The translations under genes were made by a program, and so were the position numbers. From the IMG/VR virus record IMGVR_UViG_3300028654_000025, positions 1-48,377 of that record: a DNA stretch of 48,377 nt, one strand, 5' to 3'. Each line of letters starts with the position of its first letter. Position 1 is the stretch's first letter. The stretch is from a virus. Shown here piece by piece: positions 34,893 through 47,848 of the stretch. The notes beneath the pieces are model-generated. The model made no database searches, was not told where the DNA came from, and saw only the letters and a list, made by a program, of their open reading frames with translations.

Positions 34893-35077
34893 TGGAGAGC
34901 GAGTTCGATAGACTTCTTCGCTGGAGCAAGGTGGATGTAAGCCAGCTTCAGAGCTTCCTCCAGGACGGTGATCCGTCTTTTCAACTGCTCGCATTCCAGT
35001 TCCGACTTGTTAAGCCTATCAAGGAATCCTTGAGTCGCGTATTCTGGAACTCCGTTCGGGTCGTAGTTTGTGGTCAT
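34889..35077 (-). CDS. Hypothetical 62-residue coiled-coil protein
   Basis: Residues 18-50 form a heptad coiled coil (FLDRLNKSELECEQLKRRIT onward). ATGA overlaps with the polymerase C-terminal fragment (35074-35077) and the downstream gene hold it in the operon. Confidence 0.6.
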   Translation of the reverse strand: MTTNYDPNGVPEYATQGFLDRLNKSELECEQLKRRITVLEEALKLAYIHLAPAKKSIELALQ

Positions 35078-35379
35078 ACCTTCTGGTAGTAGGGGGTGAT
35101 GCGGCCTTCCGCCTTGATCGGCAGTCCCGCCGCCCAGGGCGGCAGCTCGGTCAGTGCGGCAACGAAATCGTCCAGCTTACCCTTCGCTTGCGCGAGAGCC
35201 TGGTCGTGGATCAGTCCCCAGATGGTGAAACCCTTCCGCTCGGCGTTCACCGCTCCATGGGCCATGATGTCGGCGGCAACTGCTTGCGTGCAGTTCGATA
35301 CGAGTAACTGCTGACCTTTGGAATTGCGGATCAAGAACCGATGATTCGGTCCAGCGTTTTGAATATCGTACACTTTCAT
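35074..35379 (-). CDS. polA: DNA polymerase family A, C-terminal fragment with C-intein
   Basis: A 101-residue product. Residues 1-29 are a C-intein: MKVYDIQNAGPNHRFLIRN is block F (His13-x-Phe15) and LLVSN the block G end, with Asn29. Cys30 is the +1 nucleophile. Residues 30-101 are the polymerase end, CTQAVAADIMAHG and IHDQ (motif C), joining seamlessly after the KAAEN end of the other fragment. Its ATG overlaps the HNH gene's stop by ATGA (35376-35379), so it is made by coupled translation. Penultimate residue Ser rather than His is tolerated in some phage inteins. Trans-splicing is inferred, not shown. Confidence 0.92.
   Translation of the reverse strand: MKVYDIQNAGPNHRFLIRNSKGQQLLVSNCTQAVAADIMAHGAVNAERKGFTIWGLIHDQALAQAKGKLDDFVAALTELPPWAAGLPIKAEGRITPYYQKV
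35293..35379 (-). other. C-intein (29 residues)
   Basis: Block F VYDIQNAGPNHRF and block G LLVSN are followed directly by the extein Cys (codon 35290-35292). Together with the 91-residue N-intein it makes a 120-residue mini-intein without a fused endonuclease. Confidence 0.9.
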
Positions 35380-36023
35380 CGTGGAAACCGGTTTCTGAAA
35401 TTTGGCTTGTCGAAGAGGCGGGCCTGCGGAACTTTGTGAGCGATTCGATACAGCAGACAGGTTACACCGACACCACTCAATCGAGACGCTTCCGACACTG
35501 TGCACAGACCCCAAGGGGTTTCGATGTGCGTGTTGTTTCTTTTGTTGTTACACTGTACTCGCCGCGTGGTCCAACGGCAGTTTGTTCGGTTGTAGTCGCC
35601 ATTGTTGTCTCGTCGATCGAGCGTCAAGCCTGGACGATAGGCCCCGCCCATGTCGTTCCAAAAAGCCATGAACGAGTTATTCCAAACAGCACACACTTTA
35701 ATCCCGCGAGCACCGTAGTTGTGCCACGCTTGATGTGTCGGAAGCCTGCATCGATCACACATCGAACGCCACACGGCGTAAGCGGGGTGATTGGTCATCC
35801 CGTGAGTTCGGACTGCCGCGGCTATGGTCTTGTAGCGCATGCACCCGCAGCTCTGGTTTTGGTACTTCGGGCGACAGAAATTCTGAGCCTGCTGAACGCG
35901 GATCTTACCGCAGACACACTGAGTTTTCCAGAGAGCTTTCTGGTTTGAATCGACTCCAGCAAATTCGAGCACTTTCAAATACCCGAATTGAAGACCTTCT
36001 AATTGTTTGTGAGGGCGTCCCAT
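35376..36023 (-). CDS. Free-standing HNH homing endonuclease inside the fractured polymerase gene
   Basis: A 215-residue protein. Cys36-x-Cys38 and Cys59-x-Cys61 form the zinc knuckle seen at the N-terminus of phage HNH enzymes. His74, RGIKVCAVWN and the core LTLDRRDNNGDYNRTNCRW (133-151) give the HNH/AP2-type endonuclease signature. It starts 25 bp inside the end of the N-fragment ORF, and its TGA overlaps the C-fragment ATG. The DNA is less GC-rich (sampled lines 48-57%) than the flanking polymerase (about 65%), as expected of an invader. It probably cuts intein-less alleles and spreads the intein by homing. Confidence 0.88.
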   Translation of the reverse strand: MGRPHKQLEGLQFGYLKVLEFAGVDSNQKALWKTQCVCGKIRVQQAQNFCRPKYQNQSCGCMRYKTIAAAVRTHGMTNHPAYAVWRSMCDRCRLPTHQAWHNYGARGIKVCAVWNNSFMAFWNDMGGAYRPGLTLDRRDNNGDYNRTNCRWTTRRVQCNNKRNNTHIETPWGLCTVSEASRLSGVGVTCLLYRIAHKVPQARLFDKPNFRNRFPR

Positions 36024-38092
36024 GATTCAGATCCTCGGGCTAGAGCTTTTTCTACGCAAGCCTTTTCGGCGGAGAGGCAACCGATTTGTTCAAACACCCT
36101 ATGGTCTGGGGTCATCTGCACCCCTGCAAAGTCGATGGTCTGCTGATCCCCTTGGCACACAACACCGTCGTGACAGACCCAGCTCTCTCCGTCCCATACT
36201 TGATCCTCGATCAACACGTCCTCGATCTTCTTCCAACCGTCAGACGTAAGAACTTCGGTCCCTTCGCCAATGCAGTTCTCCGCGGCCTTGCCCGGCCACA
36301 GCTTGATCCGCCCCCACTTGGTCGTGCCGAGGAGCTGCCCGTAGTAGGTCACGTTCTCGCGGTCGTCGTCAGGCAGGGTCTCGACCTTGGGGTGCGGGTA
36401 CGCCACCACGCGCTTCGAGGGCAGGTGCATCAGCAGATACGGCAACCCGGAGACCGTGCGGAACTCGTAGGCAAGGTGCGCCCCGGCCTTGAACTTCTCG
36501 TTGGGCTGGAGGAGCGCCTTGCGCATTGCTTGATCGCAGTCGTCCCAGAACTGCACCACGCGCTCGTGGGAGTTGCGGTATGCAATGACGCCGCGCTCCG
36601 CCAGGTCGTCACTGACCCGGACCCGGTAGAGATCCCAGCAGGTGCGTTGGAAGTTCGTCCACCACATGCCGAACCCGCAGCCAAGCTCCAACCGCTTGCC
36701 CAGATCGCGTTGCTCGCTGGTTGTGCAACTGCCATAGACGTGCTTCGCCATCGTCTTGTAAACGTCAGGCTTCAGTTCCTTCGCACCCTTCCAGGCATCT
36801 GCGGCCCGGTGGATCGCCAGGATGTCTTCCTGCCCTGCCAACCAGCAGATGATCCGGGCCTCGATCGCGGCGTAGTCGGCGTCGAACATCGGCCCCGCCG
36901 GGTCGTGGATGAAGTTGCGAATACAGTTGGCGATGGCCTCCAGCGGGTTGCCGTAGAGACTGTCGATGTCGTCCTCTGTTCGTCCCGAACAGAGCATGGC
37001 GTAGACGCCATCCGCATCGCGGATGGTCGGCTTCTTGAAGTTCTGCGGCTGGAGCTTCACCCCGCTCCAGCGACCGGTGCCTGCGCCGTGGTAGAGGAAC
37101 ATCCCGCGGGCCTGACCATCGGGGCAGGCGCAGGCCAGCATGGTCTTGACCTTCTTCACCGCGGCGTAGCTGACCTGCTTGTAGAGCGCGAGAGCCTTGA
37201 GGGCGATGTCGGTTGGGTTCTCTCCGGGCTCGAACAGCATGTCCTCACCATCGTCCTTCTCGTCATGTTCACTGATCATGTCGTCAGTCGTCTTCGACTG
37301 CATGTTCGCCAGCTTGAGGCCCAGACCCTCCAGGTACGCCTTCACCTTGTTGCGCTGGGTCGGGTTGAGTCCGGTCAACTTCTGAAACTCCGCGGTGACG
37401 CGGGCCTGCACCCGGTCAATCATGGCGTCGGCGTGGCGCAGAGCGGCCATGTTGAGCGGGAGCCCGCGGTCGTTCATCCGAGCGTCGAAGAGGAACGTCT
37501 CCAAGGCACCCGTCTTCAGCTCGAACGGCTTCAACCGCTGGTGAACCTCACGCTCCGAACGCACGTCCTGGAGGCAGTAGTCGCCGAACCGGGAGAACTT
37601 GGCTGCCTCGGTCAAAGGGTCGGTGAACTCGCCGGTCTTCTTCTGCGGAGTGGAGAACAGCCGGATCAACTGATACCCCTCGCCCCACTTTTTCTGCCCG
37701 AGGTTCAGATCCTCCGCGACGTTCGCCAGCGAGGCGCGGAGCCCTGCCTTGCGGGCCAGGGCGGCGGTGCAGCGCCAACGTTCCGTTGGCGGAGGGTCGA
37801 ATCCGATGTCCAGCTTCATCCGGTAGCGGCTGACCGCCCGCTCGAACTCGGCGTTGTGCGCCCAGAGGAGCGCCTCCGGGTCCGCAAGAGCTTCGTCCAG
37901 CAGAACGAGCGCACGAGGGTCACTGATCAGATCGGCGTCGAACTCCGGGTTCATCCACAGGACCGGCTCCTCGTCGCCGCGGGCGATGGCGAACATCAAC
38001 ACTCGTGTTGATGGATCGCAGGCGTAGCGGTACGCGCCGACCTTCTTCAGATCAGCCCTGCTGCGGGTTTCGAAATCGACCGTGTAGTCCAT
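35999..38092 (-). CDS. polA: DNA polymerase family A, N-terminal fragment with N-intein
   Basis: A 697-residue product. The 3'-5' exonuclease has VDFET (exo I), AHNAEFE (exo II) and YCLQD (exo III). Polymerase motif A is DADYAAIEAR, and motif B is RDLGKRLELGCGFGM with Lys466, Leu470 and Phe474, equivalent to E. coli K758, F762 and Y766. After KAAEN the reading frame becomes an N-intein from Cys607 to the stop: block A CIGEGTEVLTSDG and block B MTPDH (TxxH). Motif C is absent and resides in the other fragment. N-extein 606 plus C-extein 72 gives a 678-residue polymerase. Its ATG follows a terminator-like stem. Confidence 0.93.
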   Translation of the reverse strand: MDYTVDFETRSRADLKKVGAYRYACDPSTRVLMFAIARGDEEPVLWMNPEFDADLISDPRALVLLDEALADPEALLWAHNAEFERAVSRYRMKLDIGFDPPPTERWRCTAALARKAGLRASLANVAEDLNLGQKKWGEGYQLIRLFSTPQKKTGEFTDPLTEAAKFSRFGDYCLQDVRSEREVHQRLKPFELKTGALETFLFDARMNDRGLPLNMAALRHADAMIDRVQARVTAEFQKLTGLNPTQRNKVKAYLEGLGLKLANMQSKTTDDMISEHDEKDDGEDMLFEPGENPTDIALKALALYKQVSYAAVKKVKTMLACACPDGQARGMFLYHGAGTGRWSGVKLQPQNFKKPTIRDADGVYAMLCSGRTEDDIDSLYGNPLEAIANCIRNFIHDPAGPMFDADYAAIEARIICWLAGQEDILAIHRAADAWKGAKELKPDVYKTMAKHVYGSCTTSEQRDLGKRLELGCGFGMWWTNFQRTCWDLYRVRVSDDLAERGVIAYRNSHERVVQFWDDCDQAMRKALLQPNEKFKAGAHLAYEFRTVSGLPYLLMHLPSKRVVAYPHPKVETLPDDDRENVTYYGQLLGTTKWGRIKLWPGKAAENCIGEGTEVLTSDGWKKIEDVLIEDQVWDGESWVCHDGVVCQGDQQTIDFAGVQMTPDHRVFEQIGCLSAEKACVEKALARGSESWDALTNN
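36002..36274 (-). other. N-intein (91 residues)
   Basis: Starts at Cys607 of the ORF (codon 36272-36274). Block A includes CIGEGTEVLTSDGWKKIEDV, and block B has the catalytic TxxH as TPDH. It ends LTNN followed by TAG, without an endonuclease domain. Split intein position is directly after the GK-x-AEN conserved motif of family A polymerases. Confidence 0.92.
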
Positions 38093-41768: not shown

Positions 41769-42749
41769 TTATCCCAACATATCGTCAGATGCGCGGATCG
41801 ACGGCGAGAGCCACAGTTTTTCGGTGCCGCGCAGATCCGTGTCAGAGTACCCGCGCCGGGCAGACCAACTCTCGGTCGCCCACCCGAGGCTGTCGTGTTC
41901 AGTTCCGCGGCCAGCGAGAATAATCCGCAGTTTCGGATTGTTCGCGTTCTGCGAACACCACTGGTTGACCCTGGTAGCCACCGGAACTTTCGTCCCATAG
42001 ACATACTCGGTGTCAGAGTATGGGGGATCAAGGAACACAGCAGTCAAACCATGTTTTATTGTGCAGCTATCCCCAAGCACCCGCTCGAAGTCGCCGCAGG
42101 CGATGCGCACCCAGCAGAGCCGGTCCTGCAAAGCCTCCAGCCAGTCGGTCAACCAGTCAACGCGCTGCTGAAATTCACCCTTCCCGGCGTCGCCCAAGTG
42201 CGGGAGCTGGCGATTGACGCCCTTCCCGGCGTCGCCCAAGTGCGGGAGCTTGCGATTGACGCCCGTCCCGGCGTCGCCCAAGTGCGGGAGCTTGCGATTG
42301 ACGCCCTTAGCCCATCCGTTGGCCTTTGTCCAACTCCACGGGCCTTCACCGCCGGCCCAACCGCTGCCGATCCACTCGTTTGCACCTTTGATCCAGTAGG
42401 CCGCAAGTGTCAGGTCCGAATACCCCGGATCACCCAAAGCGTTGCGCAGTTCATCGGCCCGGCGCATGAGCCATGCGTGCTGCGCCTCCGTGTTCACTTC
42501 TGCGACTGGGGAGATCATCAATTCCGCCAGCCCAGCCGGATCTGCCCGAATGGCTCGCCAAGCGTTGACGAGGTGGCAAGACCAGTCGTTGACCGTTTCA
42601 GATCCATTGACCGGCGTCGGGCGTTCGAGCAGGACCGCAAGCGAACCGGAGAAGGGCTCCACATAGTTGCGAATGTCAGGACCGAATAAGGTCCAGACAC
42701 GGCTGGCCACTTGGGATTTACCGCCGAAGTATGGGAACGGGGCTTTCAT
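41769..42749 (-). CDS. DNA adenine methylase (D12 class)
   Basis: A 326-residue protein. Motif I KAPFPYFGGKSQVASRVW (FGGK at 8-11) binds SAM and motif IV is FLDPPYSDTEY (DPPY near 240). NYVEPFSGSLAVLLERP is the typical following motif. The enzyme methylates N6 of adenine, probably protecting phage DNA from host restriction; the target site is unknown. Between the motifs are three in-frame 14-residue repeats of VNRKLPHLGDAGKG type (42-bp DNA repeat). ATGA overlap with the primase gene (42746-42749). Confidence 0.9.
   Translation of the reverse strand: MKAPFPYFGGKSQVASRVWTLFGPDIRNYVEPFSGSLAVLLERPTPVNGSETVNDWSCHLVNAWRAIRADPAGLAELMISPVAEVNTEAQHAWLMRRADELRNALGDPGYSDLTLAAYWIKGANEWIGSGWAGGEGPWSWTKANGWAKGVNRKLPHLGDAGTGVNRKLPHLGDAGKGVNRQLPHLGDAGKGEFQQRVDWLTDWLEALQDRLCWVRIACGDFERVLGDSCTIKHGLTAVFLDPPYSDTEYVYGTKVPVATRVNQWCSQNANNPKLRIILAGRGTEHDSLGWATESWSARRGYSDTDLRGTEKLWLSPSIRASDDMLG
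42181..42306. repeat. 42-bp direct repeat, three copies, inside methylase
   Basis: ttcccggcgtcgcccaagtg begins near-identical units at 42181, 42223 and 42265. Each codes 14 residues in frame, so copy number could vary without breaking the gene. Confidence 0.85.
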
Positions 42750-45274
42750 GAGAGCATGTCGCAGAGGCGGCGATCCACCTCGGCCTGTAGGTCGGTGACG
42801 GCCAGATCGCGTCTGATCCAGACGCCGTGCCGTTCGCCATCCACCCGCGCCCGGCCGGCGTTCACCATGCCGTGCTCGCGCAGAATGGCGCAGATCGCCT
42901 GATCGGTGAATTGCAGCGGTTGTCGGACCTGGAGGGCCTGTTTCAGCACCGTCGTGCTGACCAGCTCGGCGGTCATCAGCGGGTTCAGCTCCTCGGTCAG
43001 CAGTTCGTCGATGGCCGCCGCCAGCGGGCTCGCCGCCGCACCCGCAAGCTCCTTCAGATACTTGGTCGCCGGGGCGTGGCCGTCCGGGTTGAAGTCGTCG
43101 GAGATATGCCATTGCTCCAGCCAGCTCCGCAGGGCGCCGCCCTGGGTGCGCACAACCGACCACAGGCGGTCGAAATACTCGGTCCCCATCGCAGCTACCT
43201 GTTCGGGCAGTTGCAGCGGAGAGTTCAGCACGAAGTATCGCCGGTCGCTGTCGGAGACGGCGATGGAATCGAAATGGTTCGTGAACAGCATGTAATTGGT
43301 GATGTTGAACGTCTGGTATGCTTTGATGTGCTTCTCGTTGATCGTTACGTTGTCGTTGGAGATAGCATCTTTAAGCTTGTTCATCACCTCGTACCGGTTC
43401 TGCCCAACGACCCGGATCTCCTCGATAGCGCAAAGCTGAGCCTGTCCTTTCCATCCGGTGAACTCCGTGAACAGTAGATCCGATCCGATTGATTTGACAT
43501 GCTCGGTGCCAAGCACTGAGCGCATGGCCTCGGCAATTACCGTCTTGCCGCATCCCATGGCCCCTTGAAGCAACACAGCCCAACGGATCTTGACTCCCGG
43601 TTGCTGGACGTGAAAAGCCATGAAGTCTACCAGAGTGCGCTGGTACTCCGATTCGGCGATCAGCCGGCGCATGTGTTCCATCCAGACAGTGCCCGCTTCC
43701 GCGGCGTGCTCCGGGTCGGGGGCGGGGTGCGTCGGGATGTAGGTGTTGACCGCGCGCTTGTGACCAAGGACCACGAAGGCGTCGGAGCCGTTCGCGGGGC
43801 TGTAAATGTAGTCGTCCACCCGCGGGCACTTCAGCACATTGAGCAGGTAGTCGCGGGGCCGCACGGGCGGCGCTCCGCTGTCCTCGTCTGACTTCCCCAT
43901 GAGTTGCACGCCGAAATAGTTGTCCACGACCTCGGGCTTGAAGGTCCGTCCGGTGTGGCGCTGAAAGAACTCGTTCTGTCCGGCAACGTAGCAGAGCCCC
44001 CGCGCCCAACGTGGCAGCTCGTTGTCCGGGGTAGCCGTCGGAGTCGCCTGGGCGGTCAGGGTGCGTTCCAGCTTGGCCAGGTTGCCCTTCAGCTCTGCCC
44101 GGGGGATCTTGACCTGCCGCGAGCCCAGCCCGGCGTGCAGGGCAGAGAGGAGCGAGCCCTTCTGCAAGGCTGTAACCAGCGGGGTGCCGGCGATGCGGGC
44201 GATCCCCTCCTGGAGCAGTTCGGGGGCCGTGCGCGCGTCGGCGCGCAACCAGTCATAAGTCTGCGCGTAGCAACGCTGCCCGACCGCACCAGCCCGGTCC
44301 CAGCCCGACTCCGCGGCAGAGCGCAGAACGGAGCGGATCGTCCGCGGGGCGCGCATCCGGGCGTGCGGCTTGAAGCTGTCCCACTTGGCTCTCGTATCCT
44401 CGGCGGTAGTGTACTTCTGGCCCTTGGCGCTCCAATGATCGAACACGGCGAATCCGTTGTCCGCCTCCTGCGGAAACTGGTGCCGCATCGCCGCCGCTGT
44501 CGCGATCCAATCGGCGTAGGAGCAGTCGGGGTCCAGATGCTCCAGGGCGGAGGCAACATCCTCCAGGGTGATCCCTTCAACCGTGGGTCGGATGAACTCC
44601 AGGGCCGAGGGGTCGGCATCCGGCTGCGCAGGCAAAGGGGTGTTACCCGAGGGCGCTACTCCTACCACGGAGGCCGTCGTGACGGCCGCGCCCTCGGGAA
44701 CCGCAACGATCAACGGGTGGTCAGCCACCGGGTCATCGCCGCGAAAGATTGTGGGCAAATACATCGGCTGCACCGCAACCTTGGACTCCGGTGTAACACG
44801 CGGCAGCCCCAGGAGGGTTTCTCCGGCCCAGCGCACCGCATCGGCGTAATGCGTCACCGGCAGGGCCGCGGCGTGGATCACCACGCGCAACCGGGGCGCG
44901 TCCTCCGTGGAGGAGGCGGTCAGGTAGGCGGCGAAGGCGTAGGGGTGCAGCCGGGCGGTCAGGATCTGCGGATCAGCCACGAGCGGCCGGGCCTGGTTGG
45001 CGTCGTCGATGTCGATACAGAGCAGGTTGCAGACGGTGGCGTCCTCATAGACCCGGTGATCAGACCGGAAGGCCGCCGGGGTGAAGAAGTTGACCCGCTT
45101 GTGGGCGTTGCGCTGTTCCTTGGGCATCGCGCGCAGCTCGCTGCGAGTGACTGACGCCACGACCGCGGGGTGGCCCAGCACCTCCTTCACGAACGACGCG
45201 AAGGAGGTGACGCCAAGCGGGTGAACGGCTCCGAGGTTGGCCCCGGAACCGCCCCAATATGGGGCAATTGCCAT
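42746..45274 (-). CDS. Primase-helicase (AEP-like, PriCT-2, SF3 helicase)
   Basis: An 842-residue protein. Residues 84-92 have LLCIDIDDA, the Asp-x-Asp-type metal site of AEP-like primases. About 245-310 is a PriCT-2 region (DVASALEHLDPDCSYADW and FAVFDHWSAKGQKY). The SF3/D5-like helicase has Walker A GAMGCGKTV near 570, an AIEEIR acidic motif and FTNHFDSIAV. It primes and unwinds at the replication fork. ATG 45274 is used because TTG 45316 would add an unlikely stretch. The C-terminus is DMLS. Confidence 0.9.
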   Translation of the reverse strand: MAIAPYWGGSGANLGAVHPLGVTSFASFVKEVLGHPAVVASVTRSELRAMPKEQRNAHKRVNFFTPAAFRSDHRVYEDATVCNLLCIDIDDANQARPLVADPQILTARLHPYAFAAYLTASSTEDAPRLRVVIHAAALPVTHYADAVRWAGETLLGLPRVTPESKVAVQPMYLPTIFRGDDPVADHPLIVAVPEGAAVTTASVVGVAPSGNTPLPAQPDADPSALEFIRPTVEGITLEDVASALEHLDPDCSYADWIATAAAMRHQFPQEADNGFAVFDHWSAKGQKYTTAEDTRAKWDSFKPHARMRAPRTIRSVLRSAAESGWDRAGAVGQRCYAQTYDWLRADARTAPELLQEGIARIAGTPLVTALQKGSLLSALHAGLGSRQVKIPRAELKGNLAKLERTLTAQATPTATPDNELPRWARGLCYVAGQNEFFQRHTGRTFKPEVVDNYFGVQLMGKSDEDSGAPPVRPRDYLLNVLKCPRVDDYIYSPANGSDAFVVLGHKRAVNTYIPTHPAPDPEHAAEAGTVWMEHMRRLIAESEYQRTLVDFMAFHVQQPGVKIRWAVLLQGAMGCGKTVIAEAMRSVLGTEHVKSIGSDLLFTEFTGWKGQAQLCAIEEIRVVGQNRYEVMNKLKDAISNDNVTINEKHIKAYQTFNITNYMLFTNHFDSIAVSDSDRRYFVLNSPLQLPEQVAAMGTEYFDRLWSVVRTQGGALRSWLEQWHISDDFNPDGHAPATKYLKELAGAAASPLAAAIDELLTEELNPLMTAELVSTTVLKQALQVRQPLQFTDQAICAILREHGMVNAGRARVDGERHGVWIRRDLAVTDLQAEVDRRLCDMLS

Positions 45275-45825: not shown

Positions 45826-46520
45826 GTCCCCTCCAGTTTCGTGCCGTTCCACGCGCAGCCAGGCACCACGCTGCGAACATAAGCCAGCACCTCGGCGTCG
45901 ATCGCGGCGCGCTTGGCCCCGTAGTCGGCGTTGAGCGCGCCGCACTTGGCCCAGTGATCGGCGTTGAGCGCGACGCACTTGGCATCGTAGTCGGCGCCGA
46001 TCGCGGCGCACTTGGCATCGTAGTCGGCGTCGATCGCGGCGCGCTTGGCCCCGTAGTCGGCGTCGATCGCGGCGCGCTTGGCCCCGTAGTCGGCGTTGAG
46101 CGCGCCGCACTTGGCATCGTAGTCGGCGTTGAGCGCGCCGCACTTGGCCCCGTAGTCGGCGTCGATCGCGGCGCACTTGGCCCAGTGATCGGCGCCGGTC
46201 GCGGCGCGCTTGGCCCAGTAGTCGGCGCCGATCGCGGCGCGCTTGGCCCAGTAGTCGGCGCCGATCGCGGCGCGCTTGGCCCCGTAGTCGGCGTCGATCG
46301 CGGCGCGCGCGACGCATATGTCCGCAACGGCCCCGAGGTACACCATATTGTGCAGGCGCAAAGCCACCTCGTTCTCCGACTTGTTGCGCCGAACGTATGC
46401 GATACGTTCGTTCACGTTGTGCGACCGCTCGAACAGCGTGTCGTGGTGGAGCAGGGCAAACCAGCCGGCGGTGGGGCCGACGTAATCGGGCCGGCCGGGG
46501 AATAGTGTGTTTGGGGTCAT
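45822..46520 (-). CDS. Protein with twelve 11-residue repeats
   Basis: A 232-residue protein. Residues 1-72 are a globular-looking N-terminus (HNVNERIAYVRRN and NEVALRLHNMVYLG). From about 72 to 210 there are roughly twelve 11-residue repeats of the form A-A-I-D/G-A-D-Y-x-A-K-R/C, and then a short C-terminus with AYVRSVVPGCAWNG. Hendecad periodicity predicts a long straight right-handed coiled coil or helical rod. Several repeats end in Cys. The gene is early-region; function unknown. ATGA overlaps on both ends. Confidence 0.7.
   Translation of the reverse strand: MTPNTLFPGRPDYVGPTAGWFALLHHDTLFERSHNVNERIAYVRRNKSENEVALRLHNMVYLGAVADICVARAAIDADYGAKRAAIGADYWAKRAAIGADYWAKRAATGADHWAKCAAIDADYGAKCGALNADYDAKCGALNADYGAKRAAIDADYGAKRAAIDADYDAKCAAIGADYDAKCVALNADHWAKCGALNADYGAKRAAIDAEVLAYVRSVVPGCAWNGTKLEGT
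45898..46305. repeat. 33-bp tandem repeat array
   Basis: About twelve degenerate copies of a 33-bp unit, for example gatcgcggcgcgcttggccc continuing with cgtagtcggcgtc. It encodes the 11-residue repeats on the minus strand. Confidence 0.85.
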
Positions 46521-47449: not shown

Positions 47450-47848
47450 TTAGGAGTTGAGAAACGCTATCGCAAAAGCGCGCGCTTTCGCTTCGTCGCG
47501 TGCCTTGCGGGCCGGGGCGACGGCTTCGTCGTATGCCTTGCAGGCCGGGGCGACGGCTTCGTCGCGTGCCTTGTAGGCCGTGGCGACGGCTTCGTCGTAT
47601 GCCTTGCAGGCCGGGGCGACGGCTTCGTCGCGTGCCTTGTAGGCCGGGGCGACGGCTTCGTAGTATGCCTTGTAGGCCGTGACAGATAAGAGTCTCTGTG
47701 CGGCCCAAGACCAGTCGAACTGTGCGGCATGCGCCACGCACAGCTCGACGGACACGATGCATCGATCGCCAAACAGCCGGTGGAAAAGCTCCACCTGTTG
47801 TGTGCATGCACCAAGGAGTTTCAGTTTGCGGAGGGATAGAGTTTTCAT
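47450..47848 (-). CDS. Second 11-residue-repeat protein
   Basis: A 132-residue protein. Residues 1-56 form a conserved-looking head (LKLLGACTQQVELFHRLFGD and AAQFDWSWAAQRLLSV). Residues 57-115 are about five 11-residue repeats of AYKARDEAVAP/ACKAYDEAVAP type, alternating in pairs. The C-terminus is KARAFAIAFLNS. Same hendecad logic as the 232-residue protein but a different repeat sequence. Early gene, function unknown. Confidence 0.7.
   Translation of the reverse strand: MKTLSLRKLKLLGACTQQVELFHRLFGDRCIVSVELCVAHAAQFDWSWAAQRLLSVTAYKAYYEAVAPAYKARDEAVAPACKAYDEAVATAYKARDEAVAPACKAYDEAVAPARKARDEAKARAFAIAFLNS
47511..47675. repeat. 33-bp repeat in alternating pairs (66-bp period)
   Basis: Five full copies of a 33-bp unit starting gccggggcgacggcttcgtc or gccgtggcgac. 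Odd and even copies differ mainly at gtatgccttgcag versus gcgtgccttgtag, giving a 66-bp higher-order period, with partial copies at both ends. Confidence 0.85.

Follow-up and report, generated by a model that had tools for sequence, protein, structure and literature searches.

The window examined here, meaning the whole stretch of DNA that was analysed, is a 48,377-base virus record from IMG/VR (IMGVR_UViG_3300028654_000025), and its minus strand carries the DNA polymerase gene polA in two parts, with intein fragments at the break and an HNH endonuclease gene between them. In minus-strand order, the locus consists of the polA N-half (38092-35999; 697 amino acids, aa), the HNH gene (36023-35376; 215 aa) and the polA C-half (35379-35074; 101 aa), each open reading frame (ORF) lying in its own reading frame. 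The N-half and the HNH gene overlap by 25 nt (36023-35999), and the HNH gene and the C-half by 4 nt reading ATGA (35379-35376); an earlier note on this DNA, made from the letters alone, had described these ORFs and overlaps, and they were found at the coordinates it gave. The N-half matches the PHROG 17 DNA polymerase family (E 1.8e-62) and contains the exonuclease part, polymerase motifs A (DADYAAIEAR) and B, and an N-intein followed by a stop codon. It is divided into an N-extein of 606 aa and an N-intein of 91 aa (CIGEGTEVLTSDGW...MTPDHRVF...DALTNN; coding part 36002-36274, minus strand), with the codon for Cys1 beginning at 36274. The HNH gene starts at an ATG at 36023 that follows GAGG. 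The C-half begins within the ATGA shared with the HNH stop codon and is composed of a 29-aa C-intein (MKVYDIQNAGPNHRFLIRNSKGQQLLVSN; 35293-35379, minus strand) and a 72-aa C-extein that holds motif C (IHDQ), the codon for Cys+1 beginning at 35292. As motif A and motif C are located on separate halves, neither half alone is a complete polymerase; the joined exteins give a predicted polymerase of 678 aa.

The residues characteristic of a class 1 intein are distributed over the two fragments, namely Cys1, block B T55xxH58 (TPDH), the terminal Asn and Cys+1, and the N-intein profile matches the solved inteins Mtu RecA, Spl DnaX and NEQ068. Pfam searches recovered neither an HNH nor an intein domain, and the assignments were instead based on PHROGs, profile searches and structure. 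The nearest polA found, that of L003 (IMGVR_UViG_3300048772_000033), is 75.5% identical in the N-extein and 77.8% identical in the C-extein and has an intact site: it reads GKAAENITQAVA unbroken, with GKAAEN-ITQAVA where the window has GKAAEN/C...N/CTQAVA. The intein blocks that the earlier note had read in both halves are thus borne out, and the intact site of L003 agrees with its uninterrupted AEN-CTQ junction after intein removal; the 678-aa product that it had proposed agrees with the sequence and the relatives, with splicing itself as the predicted step. No match was returned by phmmer for L003 PolA against the PDB, and insertion sites are therefore named here by motifs and not by Klenow numbering. 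In comparison to L003, the nonsynonymous and synonymous rates (dN and dS) are 0.19 and 0.86 in the N-extein (dN/dS about 0.22) and 0.18 and 1.26 in the C-extein (dN/dS about 0.14), and both extein halves are under purifying selection. The two exteins have G+C contents of 63.6% and 63.5%, compared with 53% for the N-intein, 53% for the HNH gene and 44% for the C-intein, and the lower values of the element fit an inserted origin.

The protein encoded between the halves matches the PHROG 374 HNH endonuclease family with an E value of 9.8e-53, and also PHROG 3377, while a profile of its family gives a weak match to I-HmuI (1u3e; E 0.0098). Its structure model has a mean predicted local distance difference test (pLDDT) score of 90, and a Foldseek search of the model against the PDB gave no significant match. 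It is 41-55% identical to the HNH proteins of relatives at the same polA site, referred to as site A. By family similarity, the 215-aa protein is a predicted I-HmuI-like HNH homing endonuclease, and the PHROG 374 match and the relatives are in agreement with the earlier description of such an enzyme between the halves of a split PolA intein. A group I intron was considered as an alternative identity for the insert and rejected, as Rfam searches of the polA region of the window and of nine related loci gave no intron match.

Relatives were gathered by homology searches with HNH proteins, and the counts given for sites A and C refer to non-redundant loci. An HNH gene of the same family is present at site A in 37 viral or prophage loci, and in every one of them polA and the intein form a single uninterrupted ORF with the HNH gene hidden in the +1 frame; APSE-1, Caulobacter phage RW and Shewanella phage SFCi1 are organized in this manner. 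The N-intein profile match, these 37 loci with homologous intein and HNH parts, and the level of HNH identity together indicate that the architecture of the window is not a product of chance. The HNH start usually lies near a conserved position directly past intein block B. A start-codon motif (ATG, GTG, CTG or TTG) was recognised in 22 of the 37 genes, and before most of these starts the codons of the intein itself supply a Shine-Dalgarno-like stretch. In the AlphaFold model of a contiguous homologue (L014), which resembles the solved inteins Spl DnaX, Ssp DnaB, Mtu RecA and gp41-1, confidence is high for residues 1-83 and 268-302 (pLDDT about 81-95 in blocks of 10 residues), and pLDDT is below 50 for residues 84-267, the stretch that overlaps the HNH gene. 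Given this low-scoring middle, the break in the window is predicted to take out a segment that is unstructured in the contiguous homologue. Among further polA inteins, two loci (L012 and L019) have a polA with two inteins and an out-of-frame HNH gene hidden in each, and shortened polA inteins occur in Streptococcus phage Javan422 and Ruminococcus phage NatCom_23091 (L039, L036), the HNH frame of Javan422 being reduced to an 88-aa remnant.

The nesting of one gene within another leaves a mark on the distribution of stop codons, for which expectations were obtained by permuting synonymous codons within each HNH gene. Across contiguous inteins of all sites and genes (n=76), the intein frame holds 0 stops over the HNH genes against 430 expected, a zero that is partly built into the class, since a case was classed as contiguous only when a single ORF contained the two intein blocks; the third frame of the same cases holds 913 stops against 888 expected. 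A fairer comparison is that the alternate frame is open in 76 of 98 intein-flanked HNH genes, versus 1 of 136 same-family HNH genes without intein signal. Across the HNH gene of the window, 5 stops lie in the frame of the C-intein where 10.2 are expected (P 0.02), and 7 lie in the N-side frame where the expectation is 4.4. The dual-coding constraint is thus gone in the window, with perhaps a trace left. As these stops fall in both alternate frames, no single indel can restore an unbroken gene, and a single-indel assembly error is excluded; the assembly error that the earlier note had raised against itself is therefore unlikely, the more so given the purifying selection on the extein halves. 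That the polA of the window is a decaying pseudogene or some other artefact of assembly is very improbable. The locus does come from a single metagenomic contig, and a decayed site-A element with damage to both the HNH and polA frames is known from a prophage in an Arsenophonus endosymbiont genome (L126); however, selection is maintained on both sides of the break, the HNH ORF is intact, one sequencing error cannot explain a split with 12 stops over two alternate frames, and the record has no second polA match.

Phylogenetic analysis relates the window to the contiguous elements. In the tree of HNH proteins, it groups in the site-A clade with 97% support in the Shimodaira-Hasegawa-like approximate likelihood ratio test (SH-aLRT), and in the tree of N-intein, HNH and C-intein combined, rooted with helicase inteins, it falls within the contiguous site-A elements (94/84, 88/86) with L046 as its sister (93/80). 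The frame step from the HNH gene to the C-intein is the same as in 37/37 contiguous site-A loci; the N-side step differs. The ancestor was most likely a contiguous intein with the same HNH gene out of frame, and the change would have run from that state to the present one: an indel near the HNH start would have broken the intein frame, and the C-part would have gained a start of its own at the HNH stop, where the ATG within ATGA may now begin the C-half by coupled re-initiation.

It is thus highly probable, judging from the sequence comparisons, that the window encodes a trans-spliced polA from a split mobile intein-plus-HNH element, descended from a contiguous intein with an out-of-frame HNH gene. 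Such an element would have inserted in a phage polA directly ahead of polymerase motif C. The two intein fragments, made on separate proteins, would associate as one Hint domain and splice in trans, thereby releasing the 678-aa DNA polymerase. One catalytic aspartate belongs to motif A and the other to motif C, on different halves, and an active polymerase should therefore depend on splicing or, at the least, on assembly of the halves. Cutting or nicking of intein-free polA in co-infecting phages is the most likely role of the HNH enzyme, which would in this way spread the whole element.

Several points weigh against this interpretation. The penultimate residue of the C-intein is Ser and not the usual class 1 His, which is found in nearly all contiguous relatives. 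A penultimate Ser (VSN) recurs in two helicase inteins (L175 and L179), and His, though usual at this position, is not universal among active inteins. The tree supports are moderate, the residual stop depletion amounts to one P of 0.02, and the Shine-Dalgarno match ahead of the C-half is weak (-2.4 kcal/mol). The fractured site-A arrangement is known from a single assembled contig: the window is the sole fractured case found at this site among the loci gathered, and a DNA-pattern search of IMG/VR for the C-half start gave no second contig. The Ser residue also lends something to the idea that the unspliced halves assemble non-covalently into a working polymerase with the intein pieces as relics, and split enzymes that work without splicing reportedly exist, as with Aeh1 NrdA, a ribonucleotide reductase gene broken by a free-standing endonuclease. 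This is nonetheless unlikely, as the other splicing residues are all retained in both fragments and intein tails left at a junction immediately ahead of the motif C region would be likely to interfere with folding.

The trans-spliced reading of the window can be placed beside a second fractured polA site, site C (GRWSG/C ... HN/SDxxNLQNLP), which was reached by a search with the HNH protein of L055 (loci L055, L142-L160, L218 and L230). Here, polA is fractured by a split intein in 17 non-redundant viral loci, with an HNH gene separating its two parts, and the N-half, HNH gene and C-half occupy three frames in all 17. The HNH stop and C-half start overlap by 20 nt in 15/17, and a start codon with a Shine-Dalgarno match ahead is present in nearly every C-half. 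These features bear on the suggestion that two programmed frameshifts at the ORF overlaps yield a single long protein, a classical intein with an in-frame endonuclease. Overlaps of 25 and 4 nt in the window make a double shift possible on paper, but two efficient frameshifts would be required, ATGA is a common re-initiation junction, and the Shine-Dalgarno-preceded starts and constant overlap at site C point to separate initiation, leaving this suggestion with very little probability. The alternate frames at site C are not depleted in stops (138 against 138.4 expected, and 242 against 221). The 16 site-C HNH genes long enough for tree analysis form one group separate from the HNH gene of the window, so the fracture in the window is most simply an independent event. 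In some site-C loci (L143, L145, L150, L151), the C-half ORF also carries a contiguous site-A or site-B intein, and among the best matches no isolate phage with a site-C fracture was seen. The chances are about even that polA inteins form a series in which a contiguous intein with an out-of-frame HNH gene loses its dual-coding constraint and then becomes a natural split intein. If so, a polA assembled by trans-splicing would recur among uncultivated phages, and out-of-frame nesting would be a general way in which split inteins arise.

Dassa et al. are reported to have described, in 2009, fractured genes in which split inteins are accompanied by a free-standing endonuclease. The features of such a gene are found here: a conserved enzyme gene that intein fragments divide into two ORFs, an endonuclease gene between them, and an intein-free homologue (L003). 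The cases of Dassa et al. reportedly likewise involve phage DNA-metabolism genes broken by a split intein with the endonuclease gene in between; the window differs in its HNH instead of Vsr-like enzyme, in polA as the host gene, and in having contiguous relatives with an out-of-frame HNH gene. Another phage DNA polymerase, Aes123 PolB1, is reportedly also interrupted by a naturally split intein. Unlike the polymerase of the window, it belongs to family B. Its split intein is named as a cysteine-less one (PMC11923092). APSE-1 P45/P46 and Sodalis phage SO-1 gp38/gp39 resemble the window in that polA contains an insert overlapped by an HNH gene, and in APSE-1 the insert occupies the same polA site and the HNH is homologous; however, polA in both is a single uninterrupted ORF with the HNH gene in another frame. 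The annotation of the SO-1 insert is that of a type I self-splicing intron, yet the polA frame is open through it and no Rfam intron match was obtained. The ShiLan domain, described in 2025 from out-of-frame HNH inserts in phage methylase genes, is comparable to the polA-intein HNH in being out of frame and leaving the host reading frame open, but that insert has no detectable splicing domain, whereas here an intein carries the HNH gene and is split in the window (PMC11855218). A preprint that this group cites, on actinobacteriophage inteins of 'non-canonical architecture' (bioRxiv 10.1101/2025.01.02.630785), may describe related cases. In the literature searched, which did not cover this most relevant preprint, no description was found of an out-of-frame HNH gene in polA inteins or of an HNH-fractured polA. 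The arrangement in the window is cautiously regarded as a variant of the known fractured-gene split-intein arrangement.

The present element family bears on how split inteins originate, as contiguous and fractured forms of it occur at a single polA site and the stop codons provide a record of dual coding. Natural pairs of contiguous and split forms are amenable to testing, and the loci supply new split-intein candidates with a 29-aa C-fragment, as well as another family with Ser+1. The arrangement suggests that some phages must trans-splice their replicative polymerase.

Inteins with an out-of-frame HNH gene are not confined to polA, as helicase-like genes carry them too (L060, L061, L062, L052 4917-6611, L175 and L179), and L061 and L062 seem to have an additional, different intein. 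In the window, polA is surrounded by a replication cluster of genes for a helicase, an endonuclease, a Gp2.5-like single-strand binding protein, an exonuclease and a primase. Elsewhere in the window, the minus-strand ORF 41769-43163 holds a 42-bp unit repeated 3.1 times at 42178-42308, coding (VNRKLPHLGDAGKG)n, and 33-bp tandem repeats are located at 45892-46308 (12.6 copies) and 47490-47679 (5.8 copies).
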